From Rhodospirillales bacterium (GTDB lineage: Bacteria; Pseudomonadota; Alphaproteobacteria; Rhodospirillales; JANQFP01), in assembly GCA_028277795.1 (NCBI GenBank), contig JANQFP010000045.1:1-64000 (forward strand): a DNA stretch of 64,000 nucleotides, read 5' to 3'. Shown here piece after piece: positions 1 to 15,741 of the stretch (positions are counted from its first letter, which is position 1; each line of letters opens with the position of its first letter). The notes under the pieces are model-generated. The model saw only the letters and a program-made list of their open reading frames with translations, was not told the DNA's origin and ran no database searches. A program made the position numbers and the translations under genes.

Positions 1-185
1 CTGTTCAAACGCGGTATCCGCCGACTCCAGGCCATCTTCCAATCCTTCGCCCCACTGCCTCCACTCTGGGGAGCGTGGAGAAACTGAGGGATGGTGAGCA
101 AAACCGGCATGGACTCATACCGCTAAGTCGAGTATACAAGCGACCCTGGCTCCCCTATATATTGTGTTGCCGAGGGAGGCGTCTT

Positions 186-611
186 TTGTCGCCACAGGTC
201 AAGGATGCGGGGCTACAGTTCCATCCGCACCGCGGGACCTTGCTGATGTGCGACTTCCGGGGAAACATCCAACCCGAGATCGTCAAGAAGCGGCCCGTCA
301 TCGTCATCACCCCACGGCTGCCCCATCGCGACCGCTTGTGCATGGTGGTCCCCACCAGCACCACCGCGCCGGACCACCCCCAACCGTACCACGTCCGCCT
401 ATTGAAGAATTACCACCCGAACGAGCCGGATGACCTGCCCGTATGGGCCAAATGCGATTTGATCACGAACGTCAGCACGGCCCGTCTCGACCGCTTCAAG
501 GTGGGCTACCGGAAATACGTCACCCCCAAGATCAGCGCGGCAGACCTCGCGGCCGTTCGGCAGGGAGTGCTTGCGGCCTTGGGATTTCCAACATTGACCA
601 TTCCCGTTTAA
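186..611 (+). CDS. PemK/MazF-family toxin (solitary)
   Basis: About 141 aa, resembling PemK/MazF-type endoribonuclease toxins, which cleave mRNA. The N-terminal strand (RGTLLMCDF), the KKRPVIVI strand and the VVPTSTTAP segment match the conserved fold, and WAKCDLITNVS followed by KYVTPKIS is typical of the C-terminal half. The reading frame is open from an ATG at 75, but I chose the TTG at 186 because a strong GGGAGG sits about 7 nt upstream and it gives the usual family length. No antitoxin gene is visible on either side within the window; an upstream partner could lie left of position 1. It is on the plus strand, opposite to the phage-like genes of the same element, so it is probably cargo. 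Family call is firm; start is moderately sure. Confidence 0.75.
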   Translation: MSPQVKDAGLQFHPHRGTLLMCDFRGNIQPEIVKKRPVIVITPRLPHRDRLCMVVPTSTTAPDHPQPYHVRLLKNYHPNEPDDLPVWAKCDLITNVSTARLDRFKVGYRKYVTPKISAADLAAVRQGVLAALGFPTLTIPV

Positions 612-3956: not shown

Positions 3957-4649
3957 CTACGCCGCCCGGCCGGGCGCGTCCGGCGGCTCCTCCGGCACCC
4001 TTTGGTCGCCCATCCTGCGCCGCTCGCGCTCGATCAGCTCGGTCTTGCCGGTGAAGTCGAAATCGTCAACCTGGCTGAAATCCACCTTCGCCAATTCCGG
4101 AATGCGGAGGCCGCCGAGGGTGCCCCTCAGCAAGGGGATGAACGACCGCTGAATGAACTCGCCGACGGTGTTGCCATCGTCGGGATGCGGCCCGACATTC
4201 CCGCTCAAGCGCACGGCACCGGCAGCGCGGCGCTGTGCCCTGATATCGCCAGCGATGCCTTTCAGGCTTTCCAGGCCCTCCGCCAGCGCCACCACTGCGT
4301 CGGCCACCTTGCCGAGGACCGTCTCGCGGTCGCCCATCAGGCGGTCAATCTCCCCGTTGATGCCGCGGCGGCTGGCCAACACATCCGCCCACACGGCGGC
4401 CCTGAGTTTCTCGGTGGCCGTCTCCAGGGTAACCTCCAGGCCCAAGGCCACCCGCTCAGCTTGGGCCTTGGCGCCGTCGGCCTCCTCCAGGGCCTTGACC
4501 ACGTCGCGGCCTTCGGCGACGGCCGCCCCGGCGACCTGGCGGCGCTCCGCTTCGGCCTGGGCAATCTCGCTGCGGGTCTCGGCGAGGCGGCGGGTCAGGT
4601 CGTCAACCTCGCGGCGCAGGGTGGCGGTGGCGGGTGAGTTTTTGGTCAT
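3957..4649 (-). CDS. Coiled-coil phage-cluster protein
   Basis: 230 aa from the ATG at 4649, which has GAAAGGA just upstream; an upstream extension to 4742 overlaps the neighbouring gene and is unlikely. The first ~150 residues form long heptad-patterned helices (LRREVDDLTRRLAETRSEIAQ, VAEGRDVVKALEEADGAKAQ, VVALAEGLESLKGIAGDI). The C-terminal third contains GEFIQRSFIPLLRGTLGGLRIPELAK and a charged tail. No enzymatic motif. Its place directly downstream of the 1,067-aa gene suggests a structural or assembly role in the phage-like module, inferred only from context. Confidence 0.6.
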   Translation of the reverse strand: MTKNSPATATLRREVDDLTRRLAETRSEIAQAEAERRQVAGAAVAEGRDVVKALEEADGAKAQAERVALGLEVTLETATEKLRAAVWADVLASRRGINGEIDRLMGDRETVLGKVADAVVALAEGLESLKGIAGDIRAQRRAAGAVRLSGNVGPHPDDGNTVGEFIQRSFIPLLRGTLGGLRIPELAKVDFSQVDDFDFTGKTELIERERRRMGDQRVPEEPPDAPGRAA

Positions 4650-4674: not shown

Positions 4675-7600
4675 TCACTGGATGCCGGCGGCGCGGAGCT
4701 GAATGGCCAGCTCGACCTTGCGGCGCAGTTCGGGGTCTTCATTCAAGAGCCTGGCCCGGGCCGCGGCCAGGTAACCCCTATGCATGGCCCTCAGGGCCTC
4801 GATGCGGTCGAGGTCGCCGAGACGGCGGTAGGTTTCGGAACGGACCGTCAAGAGCATGGCATGGCGCTGGTTGAGCGCCGGCCCGCCGGGTTCCTGGCTG
4901 AGGCGAATGCCCTGGCCCTGGAGCTCGACCAGGCGCCAATACTGGTCGGGCGTCAGATCCACGCCTGAAACCTGGCGCCGGGGCATGGACAGCGGGTAGC
5001 CGAGGCGCACCAGCTCATCGTCCACCGGCGCGTGCTTGCCGCGCGAGACGTAGAAAGGATTGAGGAACTCCCACCATTCGCCGGTGTTGTAGGTGACCCG
5101 GTCGCCCCAGATGTTCCGGCGCATGGGCAGGCCGTCGGACCAGACCGGGATCCGGGCCTGCAGCGCGTTCAGGACGCGGTGGAACTCGCGCAGCGCGAAG
5201 GGGAGGTTGGGGTCCGGCGTGGCGTCCCGGGCCTCGGGGTCCAGGGTGGCCTCGACGTTCGCGACCAACGCGCTGTAGGGCATCATCGACCCGGCGAGGC
5301 GCTGGACGAAGCGGGGGGCGAACTGCCCCGGATCGGCATAGGCCGCCGCCGCCATGCTGAGGCCGTGCAAGAAGGTCTTGGAACCCAGGTTCTCGAGGAC
5401 GGCGCCCAGGGCATGGGCGGCGACCAGGTCGCGGTCCTCGCCGTTGTCGGAGAACCGGTTGAAGTCCACGGCGTCGGCGACGGTGCCGAACAGAATGGCC
5501 AACGGCTCCAGGCGGCCGTACGCGATATACACCAAGCCGCCGCTTTGGCTCACCAGGCCGGCGGCGCGCAGCGGCGCCAGCACGTTGTCCGGGACCTGGC
5601 CCACGTCGAACACGATGCTGTAGGGCTGCCAGCCGGTCTCGCGAAGTTGCGCCCTGAGTTTCGGGTTCCCCGGCCCGCCGCCGGTGATCCGGCCGTCCAT
5701 GGCCAGCGACCCGGCCCAGGCCATGATGGCCGACCCGAAGCCCACCTTGGCCAGGGCCAGGTCGCGACGCGCACCCCCGGCGGCGACCTCCGCCCAGAAC
5801 CCCTTGGGCATGGCCAGCGCGAAGGGACTGCGCTTGCCAAATTCCTTGATGATGTTCCCCGGCGTCCTGACGAACGGCATGAGCACGCGGAACGGCGCCA
5901 CCCCGGCGAGGGCCTGCACCTTCCGGCCCACACTATCGAGCTCTCGCGTGAAGGTGGCCACGTGCGCCGCGTCGGTGGCTGCGGCCCGGGCGCCTTCGTC
6001 GGCGCCGTCCAGCACGGCGGCATACACGCGCGCCGCGTCCGTCTCGGACGCCCCGCCCTGGTGGGCGACCATCGCCTTACGGCGGGCCAGGGCGCGAAGC
6101 TCCATCCTGTAGGCGACGGCCTTGAAGAACTCGTCCTCCGCCAGCAAGGCGCGGCCGGGAAGGCGGACCACGGTGCCCAGGAAGTCGATACCCTGTCCGA
6201 CCCACCCGGACGCACGGAAGGTGTCGGCCGTGATCGCCCGCCGCCTCATGTGCTCAAGCTTGCCGATGGCGTCGGAGGGGGTATCGGTCTGGAAGGACCG
6301 CCAGGCGAGGCGGAGGCCGTCGCCGGTGCCTTCGACCAGGCCATGGAGCATGTCGGCCGCTTCGCGCAAGGCGACCCGCTCCCCGCCATGGAGGAGGCCC
6401 ACGCCGGCCGCCAGCGCCCGCTCCGGCACCTGCCAAAGCGTGAACAGGGCGTTGGACGTGATGTTGACGACGTGCGTTTTCGGGCTGGAGAGGAGCCCGT
6501 TGATCCAAGTTTCGAAGAACACGTCCTTGGTGGTCGCCGCCCACGACTTGCGGACGAATTGATTGCGCGCCGCCGCGGTATCGAGCTCCAGGTACCGGCG
6601 CGCCAGGTCTTTGGTTTCGTCACGGCCGCCGAGCTCCCGGATCAGGGCGTCCACCTGCACGTCCTTGGGCGCGCCGGCGGTGATCCGAAAGGCCGACAGG
6701 GCACGCGCGATGTCGGTCTGCACGCCCTTGAGCGTGTTCTGCAAAGCGGCGTGGCGTGCCAAGTGCTCACGGAACGCCACCATGTCGTCGTCGGTGCCAC
6801 GCTCCGCCACCTGGCGGGCGAGGGTGTCCATCCTTTCCCCCGACTGCACCAGCAGGCGGCGCATGACCAGCGCCCGGGCGTGCAGGCCCTCGGTGGCGCC
6901 ACCAGCGAACTCGCCGACGATCCGGCCCACCGCGCCTTGGTCGGCGCCGAGGAGGTCGGCGAGCTGGGCGGTCACTTCGTGGGGCACCTTGCCGCGCGTC
7001 TTGTAAGCCTTCGCCGCGCTGGCGATTTCCGCCTTGACGGCGGCCGTGGTGTCCAGGCGCTCCAGGTTGAAGCCGGACCCGCCGGCATCTTCGGCGTCGC
7101 GGAGGCCCCGGTACAGGTCGAGGATCTCGTCCGCCGCGGTGGAGACCCCTTTGCCCGGTTCCGCCCGGGTGCCCTTGAGGGCGGCCTCCGCAGCGTCCAG
7201 GCCGGCGTCCAGGCCCTTGCCGGCATGGCGCACCGCGCCACCGAGGGCGAACACGGACAGGGGCACGGCGAGGTAGGTGCCGGCCTTCTCGCCGCCGCCC
7301 ACGTCGTCACCGAACCGCTCCCTGGCAAGTATGTCGCGCACATCCTCCATGGCCAGGCCCACATCCACGCCGGGAACCAGGTCGAGGAGGCCGAAGTCGC
7401 CCAAGTCGGTCTTGACCAGCTTCCCGGCCCGGCGACCCAGGCGGTCGGCCACCAGGTCGCGGAGGCCCGGCGGGGGGCCAGCGCGGAGCTCGGGCTCATT
7501 GGGCGGCAGGCGCTCGCCGGACGGGAGCGGCAGGCCGCCGGGCTCGGGGACCACGCCGGCGCCGGGGTCGAAGGTCGCCCCCGGCGTCCGGGCCGCGCCC

Positions 7601-7878
7601 TCCCGCAGCGGCGCGTTCATGGTCTCCACCGCCTGGCCGAGGCGGTTCATGATGGCGTCGTCAATGGCCGCCAGGGGCACGTCCGACAGCCGGGTCGCGC
7701 GGGCGCCGCCCTGATCGATGCCGTAGCGGACCACCACGCCCCGGTCGGGATCAGGGAATGTCCAGATTTCGTTGTAGGCGCGCTGCGATGCCAGGTCCCG
7801 CTCAAGGTCGGGATCGGCGGCGACGGCCGCCGAGCGCCGGCGGTTGACGAACAGGGGATCGAGGTTGTCAGTCATCAT
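4675..7878 (-). CDS. Giant phage internal-virion/ejection-like protein
   Basis: 1,067 aa. Residues about 455-475 carry WINGLLSSPKTHVVNITSNA, a motif I associate with very large phage virion or polyvalent proteins, followed near 550-570 by an amphipathic RLPGRALLAEDEFFKAVAYR segment. Hydrophobic stretches around 690-720 (VGFGSAIMAWAGSLAM) and 790-820 could insert in membrane. This recalls ejection proteins of podoviruses, which leave the virion to form a channel for DNA. No lysozyme or transglycosylase motif was seen. ATG at 7878 overlaps the stop of the upstream gene, with an AAGAGGGCG ribosome site. It is unusual that no portal, capsid or terminase gene accompanies it here. Exact family uncertain; a polyvalent effector is an alternative. 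Confidence 0.65.
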   Translation of the reverse strand: MMTDNLDPLFVNRRRSAAVAADPDLERDLASQRAYNEIWTFPDPDRGVVVRYGIDQGGARATRLSDVPLAAIDDAIMNRLGQAVETMNAPLREGAARTPGATFDPGAGVVPEPGGLPLPSGERLPPNEPELRAGPPPGLRDLVADRLGRRAGKLVKTDLGDFGLLDLVPGVDVGLAMEDVRDILARERFGDDVGGGEKAGTYLAVPLSVFALGGAVRHAGKGLDAGLDAAEAALKGTRAEPGKGVSTAADEILDLYRGLRDAEDAGGSGFNLERLDTTAAVKAEIASAAKAYKTRGKVPHEVTAQLADLLGADQGAVGRIVGEFAGGATEGLHARALVMRRLLVQSGERMDTLARQVAERGTDDDMVAFREHLARHAALQNTLKGVQTDIARALSAFRITAGAPKDVQVDALIRELGGRDETKDLARRYLELDTAAARNQFVRKSWAATTKDVFFETWINGLLSSPKTHVVNITSNALFTLWQVPERALAAGVGLLHGGERVALREAADMLHGLVEGTGDGLRLAWRSFQTDTPSDAIGKLEHMRRRAITADTFRASGWVGQGIDFLGTVVRLPGRALLAEDEFFKAVAYRMELRALARRKAMVAHQGGASETDAARVYAAVLDGADEGARAAATDAAHVATFTRELDSVGRKVQALAGVAPFRVLMPFVRTPGNIIKEFGKRSPFALAMPKGFWAEVAAGGARRDLALAKVGFGSAIMAWAGSLAMDGRITGGGPGNPKLRAQLRETGWQPYSIVFDVGQVPDNVLAPLRAAGLVSQSGGLVYIAYGRLEPLAILFGTVADAVDFNRFSDNGEDRDLVAAHALGAVLENLGSKTFLHGLSMAAAAYADPGQFAPRFVQRLAGSMMPYSALVANVEATLDPEARDATPDPNLPFALREFHRVLNALQARIPVWSDGLPMRRNIWGDRVTYNTGEWWEFLNPFYVSRGKHAPVDDELVRLGYPLSMPRRQVSGVDLTPDQYWRLVELQGQGIRLSQEPGGPALNQRHAMLLTVRSETYRRLGDLDRIEALRAMHRGYLAAARARLLNEDPELRRKVELAIQLRAAGIQ

Positions 7879-9579: not shown

Positions 9580-9822
9580 TCACCGGTCGGTCTCCCGCGC
9601 CGTCTCGCGCTCCGCCTTCCAGGCATCCAAGGCCGTGCGCCGGTAGTAGCATTTCCGGCCGACCCGGATGTACGGCGGGCCGAAGCGGCAGGTGGCCCAG
9701 GTCGCCAGGGTCCGCGGCGAGATGCCGAGGTACCGCGCCGCGTTGACGCGATCCATCGTGCCATCCTCCAGGATGACAACCTCAATCGGGCGCAGCGTGA
9801 TGGAGCGTGCGTCGTTGTCCAT
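9580..9822 (-). CDS. Excisionase-like HTH_17 DNA-binding protein 1
   Basis: 80 aa. The core (DRVNAARYLGISPRTLATWATCRFGPPYIRVGRKCYYRRTALDAWKA) is the MerR-like winged helix of helix_turn_helix_17/AlpA-type proteins: recognition helix SPRTLATW, then the wing I-x-V-G-R-K-x-x-Y and the closing helix. Such proteins act as excisionases or small regulators in integrative elements. An internal ATG at 9756 has a stronger GGAGG site, so the 58-aa form may be the real or a second product. The GGTCAG direct repeat at 9867-9887 lies upstream and may be its operator. Unlike its paralogue at 12621 it lies next to the structural cluster. Confidence 0.75.
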   Translation of the reverse strand: MDNDARSITLRPIEVVILEDGTMDRVNAARYLGISPRTLATWATCRFGPPYIRVGRKCYYRRTALDAWKAERETARETDR

Positions 9823-9866
9823 GCGGCGAGCCTACGGCCAGCCGCACTCGCCGCTCAAAGCCACTT

Positions 9867-9887
9867 GGTCAGAAACGGTCAGCAACC
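9867..9887 (-). promoter_or_regulatory. GGTCAG-AAAC-GGTCAG motif, copy 1
   Basis: GGTCAGAAACGGTCAG followed by CAACC sits about 45 nt upstream of the first HTH gene. It is a direct repeat of GGTCAG with a 10-nt period, i.e. one helical turn. The same 16 nt occur upstream of the second HTH gene (12915) and a relative upstream of the integrase (15601). Probable binding site for an element-encoded HTH protein. Confidence 0.55.
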
Positions 9888-10188
9888 TTTCCAACCAGAA
9901 ATCATTCCCGATCAAGGGAACACCACCGGGCGGAGTCGTCGGAACATAACCTATTGAAATTATTAGAATTGTCGGTTGCGCCGCGAGCGTGTATCACCGA
10001 AACTGTTACCGACAAAATCAGCAACACACCTCATCTTATTGAATTTACAGTATTTTAAGTTTCTATCGAAGCGGAGTTGCCGCCGTGACCAGATTGTATT
10101 CACACGAAGTTTTGAAAGTCGGTAGAGGACCACGCCCCCACCAAAGCCCGTCCGGCCGACCCTCTCGACCGCGGAACTGCCACCCACC

Positions 10189-10344
10189 TTGCCGCCGCCG
10201 CCGCCCCGGGCCTACACTGTCGCGCGACCTTGATACCCGTCTCGCTACGGGCGTAAGCCGACCGGGGCGTTCGCGCAGCAGGGGCCGGCGGGGGTGGTCG
10301 CCGGGCCGGGACCCTCACGAACCCTCGCGGGTCCCGGCTTTCGT
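10189..10344 (+). ncRNA. Candidate small RNA in element control region
   Basis: The 756-nt gap between the first HTH gene and the DUF927 gene has no convincing reading frame. On the plus strand it holds a plausible promoter (TTGCCG at 10189, 18-nt spacer, TACACT at 10213), a small hairpin (CCCGT-ctcgct-ACGGG, about 10234-10249) and a strong terminator at 10305-10344, implying a transcript of roughly 120 nt. P4-type satellites use a small RNA in their immunity and replication control region; the resemblance is positional only. No known RNA family was recognised. Confidence 0.3.
10305..10344 (+). terminator. Rho-independent terminator
   Basis: A perfect 10-bp stem, GCCGGGACCC (10305-10314) with GGGTCCCGGC (10329-10338), 14-nt loop, followed by TTTCGTT. 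It terminates something reading rightwards, although no plus-strand gene precedes it, which is the main reason for suspecting a small RNA here. Confidence 0.6.
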
Positions 10345-10430
10345 TCCCGCCGCCGACCCCCCAGCTCTCAGCTCGCCGGCCCGGCCCCCAACTGGCCCAC
10401 TCTCTCTCAATATCAACCCAATTTAAAATA

Positions 10431-10522
10431 GGTAACGCCCAGTTACACTTTATAAATATGAAGGTGTAACCTTAATTCGTTAATGTATTCAAGGTGGTAA
10501 CACCAGTTACCCCGGTCACACC
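10431..10522. repeat. A+T-rich iteron-like GGTGTAAC repeats; candidate origin
   Basis: Within a visibly A+T-rich block just downstream of the DUF927 gene are GGTAAC (10431), AGTTACACT (10441, inverted), AAGGTGTAACCTT (10461), GGTGGTAACACC (10493, with a GGTG/CACC stem), AGTTACC (10505) and GGTCACACC (10514). All are variants of GGTGTAAC in both orientations. Clustered repeats in A+T-rich DNA beside a primase/helicase gene are the classical layout of a satellite or plasmid origin. An operator array is the alternative. Confidence 0.4.
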
Positions 10523-10578
10523 TGTTTGTCATAACTTCGTGGAAACGTGACGCCTTCTCGAATTCCTCATCCCCCCTC

Positions 10579-12570
10579 TCAAACCTCCGCCTCCGACCCC
10601 GGCGCCGCACCGCCGGCGAGAAGCCGGTCCTCGCGAACCACGTAGAAGCGCTTCGTGGTCCCGTCGATCTTGACCGGCACCGTCGCCTTCCCCGCGCCGT
10701 CGCGCCGCAGGATGCCCTGGTCGCAGAGCGCGGCGTTGATGGCCCGCAGGTCGAGGCCGTCGATCACCTCCCGCTTCCAGGCGGTCGGGGAGAACAGCCA
10801 TTCGCGGTGGCCATCGACCAGCCGCTTGTAGCCCAGTCTATCGGCGATGGGCCGTCCGTTTTCCTGCGCGTCGTCGGTCCCCAGGGCGACCAGGTCGCGG
10901 AGCTCCTGGAAACGGTAGGCACCGAAGCGCGACACCAGGTCCTCTATTCGCCTCTTGGCGGTCATGATCTCGCGCGGCCCGGTCCCGCCGCGCTGGTCGA
11001 GCCAGTCGCCGAAACACATCACCGCCGCCCGCTCCGCCTCCATCTCGGGCCAGGGCAGGATGCCAAGGCGGGCGGCCAGCGCCCCGGCCGCGGCGATCAG
11101 CCCGAACCGCCGGGCCACCCTCAACACCTGCCCGTCCGACCCGTCCAGCCCGCGCGCCTCGACCCAACGCCGACGCGTGTCCTCCACCTCGCGCGCCACC
11201 GCCGCCAGGTCGCCGGTGGCGAACAGCGCCTCGACAAAGGCCCTGCCGGCCGTGCCCCTCTGCCGCTCCGCGGCCGTCCGCAGGTGCTCCGCCAATGCGC
11301 CCGGGTGCTTGAACCCGTCCGGGAGCCGGTCGAAAAGCCCGTAGCCTTCCCTCGCATCCGCCGGCAGGTCGAGAATGCGCACGTCCTGGCCCGCCTGGGC
11401 TTCCCCGCCGGCCTTGGCCATCATGTCGCCGAGCGCGGTCTCCCCGGTGGAGAGGAACAGCAGTCGCCACGTCGCCACCGGCCGGGCCGACCCGTCCTGC
11501 GCCGCCCGGCTTTTCCCTTCGCCGTTGGCCAGCATGTAGGCCACATCACCCACCTCTTTCGGGCTCGCCTGGCTGATCTCGTCCAGGCTGGCGAGGCCAT
11601 CGTTCCGGGTCACCGCCACGCCTTCGATGCCGTTGACTGTCGCTCGCCAGGACAACAAGTCCCCACCCCAAACTGTATCCGCCACCCGTAGTGCCGTGGT
11701 CTTGCCAAGGGAGGACCCGCCGCGTAAATGGACGCCCCCGCTTTCGTCGCCGGTCAACCGCAACAGCGACCCCGCGAAGGCGACCAACAGGACCAGGGCC
11801 AAGCGGGAGTTCCCCACCGCCAGCGCCGCGATGTCTCTTTGCCACTCGTCGAGGGTGCCTCGGACGGGAGACGGCCCGCCGGCGCTGACCCCGGTCTCCA
11901 AAAGGACCCGCTGGCCGCCCTCCGCGCCGATCACCTGATCGGGCAGGACGAACACCCGCCGGCCGGTGGGATCCTCGAACCATCCGGTGCGGCGCACCAC
12001 CAGGGAGACGGCCTCGGGCCGGACGCGGGCCAGATAGAGCTTCAATTGGTTGACGGCCGCGCGCTCGGGATTGCCCTCCAAGCCGCCGCTCATAAACAGT
12101 TGCAGCCAACGGTCATCGCGTCGCGCCAGCTCCCCGCGCCGGATCACCACTTCCCGCTTGATGCCGTCGTAATCGATCCAGGACAGGTGAAGGCCGTGCT
12201 CCCCGGTCTCCGGGTAGGTGGTCCGGGCCTCGACCTTCAACGGCCCGCACAGCCACAGGTGCGCCCCCTTCTTCGGTTTATACCAGAGGCCGCTCGGCTC
12301 CAGGCGGTAGTCATCGCCGATACCCCCATCGTCGCCACCGTCGGCGGGTTCCGCCGCCTTGGCCGGGGACGGTGCCGGCACGGCGTTTTCGATGCAGTCG
12401 GCGATGGCCTCCCGCACCCGCGCGCCGTCGTCTTCGGCCGCGGGCTCGGATGGCGGGTCCTCGAAGGCGTCCGAGATCAGCTCCACCGTCACCACGCCCG
12501 TGGGCTTATCGTCGGCAGCGCGGCCGGGATCGGATGGCGGCCCATCGCCCGGCGGTGTCTTCTTCGCCAT
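10579..12570 (-). CDS. DUF927-type primase/helicase ATPase
   Basis: 663 aa. After a disordered acidic N-terminus (to about 90) comes a region starting YRLEPSGLWYKP that precedes the ATPase in DUF927 proteins; the ATPase has a Walker A GGSSLGKTTALR near residue 285 and an acidic motif LASLDEIS near 320. The C-terminal third (from about 560) looks like a winged-helix DNA-binding tail ending in FYVVRED. DUF927 proteins are superfamily-3-like helicases of phages, satellites and integrative elements, thought to act at the element's origin. No TOPRIM or zinc primase domain is present, so a host or separate primase would be needed. The repeats at 10431-10522 lie directly downstream. Start codon lacks a clear Shine-Dalgarno. 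Confidence 0.8.
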   Translation of the reverse strand: MAKKTPPGDGPPSDPGRAADDKPTGVVTVELISDAFEDPPSEPAAEDDGARVREAIADCIENAVPAPSPAKAAEPADGGDDGGIGDDYRLEPSGLWYKPKKGAHLWLCGPLKVEARTTYPETGEHGLHLSWIDYDGIKREVVIRRGELARRDDRWLQLFMSGGLEGNPERAAVNQLKLYLARVRPEAVSLVVRRTGWFEDPTGRRVFVLPDQVIGAEGGQRVLLETGVSAGGPSPVRGTLDEWQRDIAALAVGNSRLALVLLVAFAGSLLRLTGDESGGVHLRGGSSLGKTTALRVADTVWGGDLLSWRATVNGIEGVAVTRNDGLASLDEISQASPKEVGDVAYMLANGEGKSRAAQDGSARPVATWRLLFLSTGETALGDMMAKAGGEAQAGQDVRILDLPADAREGYGLFDRLPDGFKHPGALAEHLRTAAERQRGTAGRAFVEALFATGDLAAVAREVEDTRRRWVEARGLDGSDGQVLRVARRFGLIAAAGALAARLGILPWPEMEAERAAVMCFGDWLDQRGGTGPREIMTAKRRIEDLVSRFGAYRFQELRDLVALGTDDAQENGRPIADRLGYKRLVDGHREWLFSPTAWKREVIDGLDLRAINAALCDQGILRRDGAGKATVPVKIDGTTKRFYVVREDRLLAGGAAPGSEAEV

Positions 12571-12620: not shown

Positions 12621-12836
12621 TCAACTCGTCCTCGCTTCCTCGGCCTCGGCTTCGGCGCGCAGCAACTCCATGTACGCTTCGGCGTCCTTGGCCGTAATGA
12701 TCGTCCGCTTCCCGACGTGGGCGGCTTTCAACCTTCCGGAGCCGATCTCTTCATAGATCTTCGTTCGGCCGATGCCGCTCGACGTGGAGAATTCCGGGAT
12801 CGTGTACGCGAGCTTGGGCAGTTTTGTGGCGTCCAT
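12621..12836 (-). CDS. Excisionase-like HTH_17 DNA-binding protein 2
   Basis: 71 aa: LAYTIPEFSTSSGIGRTKIYEEIGSG, then RLKAAHVGKRTIITAKDAEAYMELL, a typical MerR-like HTH_17 fold with recognition helix GRTKIYEEI and wing V-G-K-R-T-I. The ATG at 12836 has GGAGGA about 8 nt upstream. It ends 51 nt before the DUF927 gene, so the two are probably co-transcribed, as with AlpA-type regulators beside replication genes of satellites. The GGTCAG direct repeat at 12915-12934 is upstream. It could control excision, replication or both. Confidence 0.8.
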   Translation of the reverse strand: MDATKLPKLAYTIPEFSTSSGIGRTKIYEEIGSGRLKAAHVGKRTIITAKDAEAYMELLRAEAEAEEARTS

Positions 12837-12936: not shown

Positions 12937-14025
12937 CTAACGGTCATCTTTCATTCGCGAGATCGTGTCAAACGTCGGCTCCCGACGCTCACGAGCCATC
13001 CTCGCAGATACCAATAACGCGTCTGTATTAATCTTTGATATATTCATCCCTTGTATTTGGTGTATTTCTAGTGCCTTTGCCACAAGCGCGGATGCCGCAA
13101 GGTCTTCATAGATTGCGCACCCGGCCAAATACACAATAGTCGTTTCTATTTTCTTGAAGTCTCCATCATATTCATTCGTCTCTACAATCCGTTCACAGAA
13201 CTCTTGAGCGTGTGGAAATAATGTTCCATAGCTTGGTTTTGTTTGATCGTGAATTTCGAGCTCGCGTATCGTAGAATTCGTTAATTTTTTGGGAGTCGTT
13301 ATCCCAAATTTTCTTGATGTTACCGAAAGCGCCACTTTCCACTCTTCAATTATTTCCGTCGGATACCCTTTTGCCCCGCCTTTGTTTTTCTTTACGTTTT
13401 TATTATTAGAAGCGGTATCGTCACTTATGTATTCATCAACCACAATCCGGTCCATCAACGCGGGATATTTCAGATTTGCATTCCAATAGTTCACTTCATC
13501 CCTAGGGTGATCAAAGTCATTATCATTAAGAACTCTTTCGTCTTTCTTTAAGTCTGGATGCTCTACACCCTCGTTGACTTGTATTGCATCTAAGTGAAAG
13601 ACAATTCTGGTGCTACCCCGCCATTCCTTCGGGACCTCTTTTTCCGGGCCTGCCCCATCCGAAAACCAAACAGGAACCCCACCGTCGCGGTATGCGTCTC
13701 GCACCCACTCCACGGCCGTCTCCACCGTCATTCCCCTCTTGAAGTGGAGGTATTCGACCATCTCCGATGGCGTCAGCCGGCGAGCAACTCGGTCACCATG
13801 ATCCCCTCTACCGGCCAAGGCCCATCCCCAGCCCCAGTCCTCGCGCGGCGCTTCCTCGACCGAGACCGACTTTATGCCATCGAACTGCGCCAAGGGGTGG
13901 GGGTGCGGCGGCAACGGCTTCCAGCCATAGCGGATCGCCGGGTGATCCGGCGGCAAGTCTACAGCCAGGAGCTCAAGACGCGGCGGGACGCGGCCACGGC
14001 GGGGTTTTCTGGTGTCGTCGGGCAT
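12937..14025 (-). CDS. Unknown protein with abrupt composition change
   Basis: 362 aa from the ATG at 14025, which has GGAAGGGAG upstream. Residues 1-130 are encoded by GC-rich DNA and include RLTPSEMVEYLHFKRGMTVETAVEWVRDAY, a possible small helical domain. The rest (about 13,640 downwards) is markedly A+T-rich, rich in Asn/Lys/Asp, with NNKNVKKNKGG linker, helix-rich ITTPKKLTNSTIREL and TTIVYLAGCAIYEDLAASALVAKAL. No membrane segment or catalytic motif. It lies between the integrase and the HTH/DUF927 pair, a common place for accessory or defence cargo. The split composition suggests fusion of an old N-terminus with a recently acquired C-terminal region. No function assigned. Confidence 0.6.
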   Translation of the reverse strand: MPDDTRKPRRGRVPPRLELLAVDLPPDHPAIRYGWKPLPPHPHPLAQFDGIKSVSVEEAPREDWGWGWALAGRGDHGDRVARRLTPSEMVEYLHFKRGMTVETAVEWVRDAYRDGGVPVWFSDGAGPEKEVPKEWRGSTRIVFHLDAIQVNEGVEHPDLKKDERVLNDNDFDHPRDEVNYWNANLKYPALMDRIVVDEYISDDTASNNKNVKKNKGGAKGYPTEIIEEWKVALSVTSRKFGITTPKKLTNSTIRELEIHDQTKPSYGTLFPHAQEFCERIVETNEYDGDFKKIETTIVYLAGCAIYEDLAASALVAKALEIHQIQGMNISKINTDALLVSARMARERREPTFDTISRMKDDR

Positions 14026-14155
14026 GGTGCACTCCCTTCCAAGGCGCGCTTCCTGGGGAGGAAGCTGCGGCAACCTGGCAGGAAGGAGCCCAGGCTTTCG
14101 GCGGCCGACCTAGCCGCAGCAGCCCCAGGATATAGTTGTTCGCTACAGCCGACAA

Positions 14156-15496
14156 TCAAGATTTAGAGGCCCGGCGACGCAGCCGTGTGACCGTGCCCTT
14201 GCCGCCGATCCCGAGTTTCGGCGCGCCGGCGCGGATGGCGTCCTGCACGTAGGAGGGCGCCAGGTGGGCATAGTGCTTTTCCGTCATCCGCGTATCGGCG
14301 TGGCCCAGGTTCTGCGCGACCACGGGCAGCGGGACCCCATTCATGACCAAGTGGCTCGCATAGGTGTGCCGCAGCACATGGAACGATGCCGTCGGCGAAA
14401 TCTTGGCCCGCTCGCACGCCTCCATGAGGGGCCGTTGTTGATGGGTCCGGCCCCAAGTCTTCCCGTCGGCACGGGGAAACAGGATGGCGTCACCGACAAG
14501 GCCGGCGGTCGCCGTCTCGAAGAACGCCTTGCCGTCGTCATCCAGGTAGACGTGCCGCGCCTTGCCGGCCTTCGATCGGCGAACGTGAACCGTCCCGCCA
14601 TCCGGGTTGAAGTCTTCGGCACGCAGGGCGGCCAGTTCCGAATACCGGCAACCGGTGAGCAGGGCTGCCCGCACCAGGGGCCTCAAGTCGTCCCCGCAGG
14701 CGTTCACCAGCCGCCGACAGTCGTCCTTGGACAGATACCGGACCCGCGCCGCGTCCACTCCCTTGAACGGCGCGACCCGCCGCCAGGCGGCGTCACTGGC
14801 GACCAGGCCTTCTTTCCATGCATGGTTCAACGCCGCCTTCAACGTGGTCAGCACCCGGTTCGCCGTCGCCTGCCGCCGCCGCGCGTCCTCGGGACCCTCG
14901 CCGAGCTCGCGGTACCGCTGTTGCTTGCCCGGCCGGGTGCGCAACCGCGCCGGCGTCTTGGCGAGCCCGGCGTGCCAGTCCCGCAGCCGTCGCGCCGTCA
15001 GGGACGCCACCGGCTTGTCGCCGAGCTCCGGCAGGATCAGGGCGTCGGCCCGGGTCCGCGCGTCCCCCACGGCCTTGCCGCCTCGGCGCTCGTAGTCCTC
15101 AAGGTAGTCCTCGATGGCGTCGCGGACCCGGTACGGCCCGCGCCGGGGTGCGCGATCATCGGCGCGCTGCGCGTCCTCGAACTGCTCCCGCGCACCGTTC
15201 TTAAACCAGGCGAGGGCCTTTTCCTGGGCCTGCTCGAACGACAGGACTCGTTCCCCGTCCGCGTCCTCGATATCGTCGGCCCGCCCGAGCTGTGTCTTGG
15301 CGTACCCTCTCCCTTTCGTGGCTTCGAGATCGCCCGCCGGCCGCCACCGGGCAACCCAGGTTCCACCTCGGGTTCCCTTGTAATAACCGAGGTGAGCTCC
15401 CAGGCCGACCAACCGCCAATAGGGCTCATGCTGCACTGCCAGCCGAGACCTTGCTGTCCGCGTATCGATCTTCACTTCCTGAACCGTCCGCGCCAT
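14156..15496 (-). CDS. int: Tyrosine recombinase/integrase
   Basis: 446 aa from the ATG at 15496, which has GAGGG about 8 nt upstream (a GTG at 15505 would be too close to that site). N-terminal arm-binding region, core-binding SAM-like domain around 120-225, catalytic domain from about 250. Catalytic set present: R284 (TGCRYSEL), K309 (SKAGKAR), H373 and R376 (HVLRHTYAS), H399 (GHADT), nucleophile Y409 (EKHYAHL). It should integrate the element by site-specific recombination; the 3' fragment of tRNA-Glu at 15698-15741, 200 nt upstream, marks the target. Full length with all catalytic residues, so probably active. Confidence 0.92.
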   Translation of the reverse strand: MARTVQEVKIDTRTARSRLAVQHEPYWRLVGLGAHLGYYKGTRGGTWVARWRPAGDLEATKGRGYAKTQLGRADDIEDADGERVLSFEQAQEKALAWFKNGAREQFEDAQRADDRAPRRGPYRVRDAIEDYLEDYERRGGKAVGDARTRADALILPELGDKPVASLTARRLRDWHAGLAKTPARLRTRPGKQQRYRELGEGPEDARRRQATANRVLTTLKAALNHAWKEGLVASDAAWRRVAPFKGVDAARVRYLSKDDCRRLVNACGDDLRPLVRAALLTGCRYSELAALRAEDFNPDGGTVHVRRSKAGKARHVYLDDDGKAFFETATAGLVGDAILFPRADGKTWGRTHQQRPLMEACERAKISPTASFHVLRHTYASHLVMNGVPLPVVAQNLGHADTRMTEKHYAHLAPSYVQDAIRAGAPKLGIGGKGTVTRLRRRASKS

Positions 15497-15600
15497 CGTC
15501 CACACCCTCTAGCCAGGACATGAAATAGGAAACAAAACCTATAACTCATTATTACCGAAGTTGGATTTCTCGGAAATAAGATAAGGTGAACCAGGGCGGA

Positions 15601-15697: not shown

Positions 15698-15741
15698 CTC
15701 TCACGGCGGCAACAGGGGTTCGAATCCCCTAGGGGACGCCA
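15698..15741 (+). other. Attachment site: 3' half of tRNA-Glu(CTC)
   Basis: Starts with the anticodon loop CTCTCAC, then the 3' anticodon strand GGCGG, variable CAACA, T arm GGGG-TTCGAAT-CCCC, acceptor strand AGGGGAC, discriminator G and CCA. This is the 3' part of a tRNA-Glu(CTC). The 5' half is absent: the sequence before the loop (GGTTTT) does not pair with GGCGG and no D arm is present. Such a fragment is the att repeat left by integration into a tRNA gene. On the plus strand the intact gene should lie at the element's left end, outside this window. Confidence 0.85.

Follow-up and report, generated by a model that had tools for sequence, protein, structure and literature searches.

A candidate split replication origin, with iterons behind the DUF927 gene, in an element integrated at a tRNA-Glu gene of a Rhodospirillales bacterium

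Short repeats beside a predicted helicase gene raise the question of whether they mark the place where an integrated element would begin to replicate. In the window analysed here, a 64,000-nucleotide stretch (positions 1-64000 of contig C91 in the 253-contig assembly G000), such repeats fall within the left 15.7 kb, which make up most of one integrated element. A sequence-only reading had described six variants of GGTGTAAC in both orientations next to the predicted helicase gene, and both points were borne out: six sites, called array A here, occupy window positions 10432-10522, five on the minus strand and one on the plus strand, 57 to 147 bp 3' of the stop codon of a DUF927 gene. Read in the direction of the gene, their spacing is + 9+ 9+ 34- 21+ 10+, and the array is laid out as follows.

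10515..10522, minus strand: iteron 1, GGTGTGAC, 57 bp 3' of the DUF927 stop codon
10506..10513, minus strand: iteron 2, GGGGTAAC, 9 bp after iteron 1
10497..10504, minus strand: iteron 3, GGTGTTAC, 9 bp after iteron 2
10471..10496: first A+T-rich gap, 69% A+T, possibly a melting site
10463..10470, plus strand: iteron 4, GGTGTAAC, opposite in orientation to the others
10450..10462: second A+T-rich gap, 12 of 13 positions A or T (92%)
10442..10449, minus strand: iteron 5, AGTGTAAC
10432..10439, minus strand: iteron 6, GGCGTTAC, with 2 mismatches

A matrix scan added a seventh, weak site (GGCGTCAC, 10547-10554, minus strand) 32 bp before the triplet, which was left out of the array A pattern.

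What is unusual about these repeats is their clustering and not their total. Over the whole 64-kb window the 8-mer GGTGTAAC was not enriched (17 copies found versus 21.3 expected), with 5 of the 17 lying within one 92-bp stretch. The 145 bp from 10401 to 10545 contain 5 copies that carry no more than one mismatch, where 0.28 would be expected, and none of 2,000 first-order Markov shuffles reached five. Without reference to a motif, the clustering score of array A was 13.0, lower than the 14.9 that marks the 95th percentile of control blocks in the survey of relatives described below. A chance cluster in A+T-rich DNA would fit the lack of window-wide enrichment and the modest motif-blind score, but the shuffles, the recurrence of the iteron in a second array (array B, below) and a spacing close to that of arrays in the relatives L197, L161 and L157 leave this explanation with almost no probability. 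The weight of array A therefore comes from shared architecture and from the second array, not from the motif-blind score.

Base composition gave mixed results. Array A had been described as the most A+T-rich stretch of the element, which is correct in 100-bp windows (32% GC, the lowest of the element), becomes a tie with position 13381 in 60-bp windows (28% GC each), and fails in windows of 150 to 200 bp, where the 13.1-13.5 kb part of the ORF at 12937-14073 has lower GC. GC skew, proposed as a check on origin function, returned no clear switch at array A. About 70 bp beyond the array lies a very G+C-rich stretch (10286-10361) that contains a perfect 10-bp stem (10305-10314 with 10329-10338) and has no match in Rfam.

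The genes around array A, all on the minus strand, are those of an integrated element.

14156..15505, minus strand: tyrosine integrase (PF00589, 8.4e-26)
14051..14120, minus strand: int-alpA RNA (Rfam RF02996, 43.7 bits versus a gathering score of 35.8)
12937..14073, minus strand: ORF of 378 aa without a match in Pfam or PHROGs; its G+C is low at 13.0-13.6 kb
12621..12836, minus strand: HTH_17-like gene, between the 378-aa ORF and the DUF927 gene
10579..12570, minus strand: DUF927 protein, 663 aa (Pfam PF06048, 1.9e-66)
9580..9822, minus strand: second HTH_17 protein, 3' of array A on the same strand

The int-alpA RNA lies 3' of the integrase gene and overlaps the listed start of the 378-aa ORF. 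To the left of the DUF927 gene are more leftward ORFs, one of them phage-like. This 1067-aa ORF (4675-7878, minus strand), which a 501-aa ORF adjoins, is related to internal virion proteins; its relatives include T7-type protein D as annotated in Roseobacter, Pelagibacter, and other phages, and 29 of 50,697 phage records match. Among the element ORFs scanned with PHROGs there was no match to a terminase, portal, or major capsid protein (an absence that counts as weak evidence) and one weak scaffold or tape-measure match. The element is perhaps a satellite with its own DNA-ejection proteins.

Evidence for an initiator comes from the DUF927 protein. Only two PDB sequences match the family profile at E values up to 0.1: 8tch, the SaPIBov1 initiator (Rep), at 2.8e-25, and 5dgk, the SCCmec protein Cch. 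A structural model of the window protein (mean pLDDT 86) matched 5dgk with a Z score of 29.9 over 481 residues and 8tch with 28.9 over 458 residues, followed by MCM proteins at 14.2. The SaPIBov1 Rep match covers residues 84-653, including the C-terminal winged helix. Taken alone, the C-terminal domain (residues about 533-651) is a winged helix closest to 8tch (Z 11.0), with 5vfx, a relaxosome protein solved with oriT DNA, at 10.2 and 5dgk at 9.0; Foldseek with this domain alone gave no match at E ≤0.001, the best being 8tch at 1.5e-3. The DNA-binding domain of P4 alpha was absent among the matches listed for the C-terminal domain, which proves nothing. Judged by its fold, the protein is predicted to be an MCM-like AAA+ initiator helicase, and by profile it belongs to the DUF927/SaPIBov1 Rep helicase family, as expected of a SaPI/PICI-type Rep-ori module. 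In earlier reports, DUF927 is predicted to be a helicase family (PMC5862659), Cch is described as a DUF927-containing protein related to SaPIBov1 Rep, and SaPI Rep uses its C-terminal domain to read iterons directly 3' of its own gene (PMC7581432). An IncC-mobilised island, according to a further report, did not need a DUF927 gene to excise, to be mobilised, or to integrate (PMC7449626).

The region 3' of the gene was surveyed in 104 DUF927 loci. A single-protein query confirmed no relatives in genome or viral contigs, and the query used was an alignment built from seven DUF927 proteins. From genome contigs the best 80 of at least 453 matches were taken, and from viral contigs the best 80 of 139, giving 160 relatives that are not a random sample. 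Of these, 51 were dropped as redundant (at least 80% identity) and 5 of the remaining 109 for having less than 700 bp 3' of the stop codon, leaving 104 non-redundant loci with at least 700 bp. An in-frame stop lies within the match in 11 of the 160 (6 of the 104, and 3 of the 64 with refined arrays: L148, L152, and L198), so the stop position may be off for those loci. A pilot on 12 regions of 12 genomes had shown clear arrays near the DUF927 gene in most, with none seen near the gene in L034 and L035.

By a motif-blind score for clustered 8-mers, 61 of the 104 loci, compared with 6.8 expected, had their best-scoring block immediately 3' of the DUF927 gene. Scores of at least 17 were reached 3' of the gene in 60 of 104 loci, upstream of it in 0 of 104, and in 2.5% of 1,740 control blocks, which include much coding DNA. 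The 3' array is not universal, because 40 of the 104 relatives lack one scoring at least 15, including some that are roughly as similar to the query as array carriers are. Refined arrays were built for the 64 loci with scores of at least 15; they begin a median of about 42 bp after the stop codon and contain 6 to 14 iterons, and same-sense neighbours 7 to 14 bp apart are spaced by exactly 9 bp in 226 of 309 cases. The iterons differ in sequence among relatives (GGTGTAAC, TGGGGACA, GGAACACC, CGGTAACG, and others), and position, 9-bp period, and orientation patterns recur. The expectation that DUF927 relatives would keep the repeats was thus right for position and period, in about 6 of 10, and wrong for sequence.

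The orientation patterns place array A within this family. A number of arrays are mirror-symmetric, for example that of L161 ('-9-9-34+21-9-22+9+21-34+9+9+'). L197, which likewise has GGTGTAAC as its iteron, carries a 12-iteron array with a left half that reads '+9+9+34-21+9+...', nearly the spacing of array A, '+9+9+34-21+10+'; array A is also close to L161 (34/21/9) and to L157, in a comparison that was seeded with the six known sites for the window and located the relatives' sites automatically. Array A resembles one half, the left, of a mirror-symmetric array, and scans did not find the second half that long arrays have. In 24 of the 64 relatives, as in array A, a tandem pair is followed at 28-38 bp by a copy in the opposite orientation and at 50-58 bp by one in the same sense, versus 2.7% of random layouts, a baseline for six sites only where the relatives' arrays have 6 to 14.

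Iteron sequence was also compared with the C-terminal domain across 62 rows (61 of the 64 array loci plus the window, with L148, L152, and L198 left out). The two covary weakly (Mantel r 0.16, p 0.002; partial, given the core, 0.12, p 0.03), a signal too weak for covariation to be adopted as a guide to recognition specificity. L197 and the window, for example, share the same iteron, yet their C-terminal domains are 21% identical.

The combination of a DUF927 gene and a 3' array extends to three plasmids, namely plasmid III of L. fallonii (typed as rep_cluster_113), pMNOD05, and a P. toruni plasmid that is linear, and to the phage phiAH14b. The iteron of the P. toruni plasmid, GTGTAACC, is nearly that of the window, and the PLSDB table, itself incomplete, lists no other replication initiator for the three plasmids. 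The P. toruni record (Photobacterium toruni plasmid pCECT9189-4, locus L213) is linear, 9.8 kb long, and has a protelomerase gene; DUF927 is the only replication-like gene listed. Nitrosoglobus plasmid pTAO100 was rejected as a further example: its best 3' score was 10.9, with no array, and it carries a RepM gene. Nor did the highest other blocks count as additional arrays, as in pMNOD05 an overlapping block had picked up the 3' array again and in phiAH14b the motif was a different one. Another cluster of repeats in 9-bp steps, with the different motif ACACCTCT, lies at 248-353 of the pMNOD05 locus (L211).

These data bear on a regulatory explanation, in which the repeats are operators of an HTH_17 regulator controlling the genes 3' of array A. 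The array does lie in an intergenic region upstream of the leftward HTH_17 gene at 9580-9822, but a search of 9800-10700 for sigma-70-like promoters, the only type sought, found none, relatives carry their arrays 3' of DUF927 in 60 of 104 loci and upstream in none, and plasmids too have them 3' of DUF927. We regard operators as very improbable. Repeats that look like iterons of the DUF927 initiator are supported instead by their place, their 9-bp period, their orientation pattern, and the match of the protein to SaPIBov1 Rep.

Whether array A is the only such site depends on the rest of the element, which continues on a second contig.

15698..15741, plus strand: attR, a 44-bp copy of the tRNA-Glu 3' end
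G000:C100:23271-23346: intact tRNA-Glu (attL)
1..98, plus strand: right end of an insertion sequence, whose left end is at C100:23639
99..108: 10-bp target duplication CAAAACCGGC of the insertion sequence, with the other copy at C100:23629-23638
C100:23472-23583, outside the window: array B, six copies of the iteron of array A

The end of C100 and the start of C91 both lie inside a multicopy insertion sequence of about 1.2 kb, and the element is split over two contigs because this sequence cuts the assembly between them. It breaks the assembly at many places, and its left and right ends were paired by their 9-10-bp target duplications. Eight left ends were found; the one at the start of C234 has no flank, and the remaining seven were each paired with a right end (C100/C91, C148/C45, C75/C136, C5/C45, C99/C186, C192/C234, and C147/C171), with one right end (C197) unpaired. 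Because C100 pairs only with C91, through CAAAACCGGC, which no other end found has, the element is taken to run from C100:23303 to window position 15741, about 16.0 kb without the insertion and 17.2 kb with it. A PemK/MazF-like toxin gene (75-611, plus strand) adjoins the insertion sequence at the left end of the window part.

Array B lies 126 to 237 bp inside the attL tRNA-Glu, with the spacing + 9+ 8+ 46- 23- 18+. All seven exact copies of GTGTAAC in the element (insertion sequence not counted) sit in the two arrays, five in B and two in A, and the 4.4-Mb assembly has the arrangement GTTACAC-N(4-30)-GGTGTAAC at two places, one in each array, and nowhere backwards. The insertion sequence follows B, beginning 55 bp from its last iteron, and scans found no mirror half. 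The spacing type of B (46, 69, 87) resembles that of a second array in L057 (43, 66, 86) and of the 3' array in L060 (44, 67, 85); it was seen in 7 of the 64 relatives with arrays, in addition to L057's own second array, and in 0.3% of random six-site layouts. An alternative origin elsewhere in the element had been named as a result that would speak against array A, and this has come partly true, in the form of a second array with the same repeat. An excised circle would put array B about 5.3 kb upstream of the DUF927 stop codon.

Second arrays also occur in relatives. When each of the 64 loci was scanned to a distance of about 6 kb, using the matrix of its own 3' array, a second cluster appeared in 8, comprising 7 of 23 short-array loci and 1 of 41 long-array loci (Fisher p 0.002), versus 0 of 64 with reversed matrices; in the other 56, the array 3' of the gene was the only one within that distance. 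Ten of the 23 short-array loci, and none of the long-array loci, were extended by additional flank. Seven of these ten had no second array before; L163 and L192 gained one, and none was found after extension in L058, L054, L158, L120, and L078. This raises the short-array count to 9 of 23, which includes the extra flank, so that 7 of 23 is the like-for-like figure against 1 of 41. For eight of the ten second arrays, the start lies 2-98 bp beyond an ORF, in every case one that matches PF00589 (tyrosine integrases); among the nine short-array relatives with a second array, eight have it directly 3' of an integrase gene. In L138 (4809-4923) and L112 (6371-6462), second arrays lie inside the 5' part of the DUF927 ORF. 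Array B is across attP from the integrase, so that a position at the integrase end holds for it and one 3' of the integrase does not.

A location 126-237 bp inside attL, together with second arrays 2-98 bp 3' of integrase genes in 8 of 10 cases in relatives, would also suit arm-type sites of an integrase or excisionase, unrelated to replication, with the iteron common to both arrays since one protein regulates both. We consider this improbable, as B carries the iteron of its own element's DUF927 array, second arrays in relatives likewise were found with the 3'-array matrix, and the spacing of B is close to that of the L057 second array and of 3' arrays such as that of L060.

Among known systems, the closest layout is that of SaPIBov1-type (PICI) origins. 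One report describes the origins of PICIs as lying 3' of rep, with a pair of iteron sets flanking an A+T-rich region, a layout shared by no other known replicon (PMC6092414). The element has the same kind of DUF927/MCM-like initiator with a predicted C-terminal DNA-binding domain, likewise has iterons immediately 3' of the initiator gene, in groups flanking A+T-rich gaps (69% and 92%), and is likewise integrated, with genes for a tyrosine integrase and an AlpA/excisionase-like protein. It differs in its tRNA-Glu site, in its iteron GGTGTAAC, in having only six iterons at A, and in the second array at the att end; induction and packaging by a helper phage are traits of PICIs. The earlier suggestion that the layout resembles satellite and plasmid origins was well founded, given the SaPI/PICI-like place, the 9-bp period, the pattern in 24 of 64 relatives, and the SaPIBov1 Rep match.

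Two other systems were compared. No structure matched the DUF927 protein better than SCCmec Cch (5dgk), and Cch2 binds direct repeats 3' of its gene (PMC7581432); Cch2, in contrast, belongs to another helicase family with 5-nt iterons, and SCCmec uses serine recombinases. Iteron plasmids with Rep_3-type initiators have tandem iterons beside an A+T-rich stretch, as here, but the initiator of this element is itself helicase-like, and none of the ten ORFs scanned had a Pfam match to a Rep_3-type initiator.

The split form has its nearest parallel in satellite P4, as described in its GenBank record. P4 has two separate sites with common 8-bp repeats, one of them 3' of the initiator gene, with tandem copies 9-11 bp apart in both orientations: crr, 3' of alpha, has repeats at 4314+, 4323+, 4366-, 4384-, and 4398+, with a second copy 180 bp on, and ori has repeats at 9310-, 9320-, 9331-, 9353+, 9396-, and 9406-. 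The commonest P4 repeat is GGTGAACA, compared with GGTGTAAC here, and the P4 site 3' of alpha also adjoins attP, whereas these are two separate places in the element. Filing the element with P4 was rejected: it has two sites, but P4 alpha is a Toprim/D5_N/Pox_D5 protein without a DUF927 match and the window protein matches DUF927 only. The likeness is therefore in the array and not in the helicase family.

P4 also frames the question of which array would be the start. Array A could be a helper site, comparable to crr or acting in handcuffing or copy control, with B as the true start, or the reverse. The two arrays share one iteron, P4 has its crr 3' of alpha and its ori elsewhere, and B has five exact iterons to the two of A. 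However, directly 3' of the gene is the usual place for an array (the sole one within about 6 kb in 56 of 64 relatives), and the gaps of A are richer in A+T (69% and 92%) than the 54% measured in B. A strict division into helper and start is, on balance, unlikely.

We favor a reading, at a probability of roughly 85%, in which array A is the binding array of the element's DUF927 initiator and A and B together form a split origin comparable to P4 ori/crr. The C-terminal winged helix of the DUF927 protein would bind the 8-9-bp iterons, an MCM-like ring would assemble at those of array A, the A+T-rich gaps between iteron groups would melt, and the helicase would load itself and copy the excised circle. 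Array B, with the same iteron at the attL end, would make up the origin together with array A, and the actual start could be either one; the replication start site may thus be split in two. A candidate SaPI/PICI-type rep-ori module, in a split form resembling ori/crr of P4, is largely supported by the arrays, their architecture in relatives, and the predicted fold.

A broader proposal is more speculative, and we would put the odds somewhat against it. DUF927 origins might follow one plan, an array of about 200 bp of 9-bp iterons 3' of the helicase gene, often mirror-symmetric, that also occurs split, with one half array 3' of the helicase gene and another at the integrase or att end. The SaPI origin and P4 ori/crr would then be two states of one array design in unrelated helicases, and a split element would replicate only when its two halves are brought together, which might happen solely in the excised circle.

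The mechanism class is already known from SaPIs, and the element, the split layout, and the family-wide pattern are, as far as seen, new; the literature searched, subscription papers aside, yielded no account of split DUF927 origins or of an array pattern common to the DUF927 family. Although one branch is a known island helicase, DUF927 continues to be classed as a domain of unknown function. The survey turns the family into a predictor, with a candidate origin directly behind the gene in about 6 of 10 relatives surveyed and a reach that takes in islands, phage-like elements, and plasmids. For this element, two short pieces of DNA, arrays A and B, can be named as candidates, and the split form offers a testable link between integration and replication, as well as a common frame for SaPI and P4 origins.
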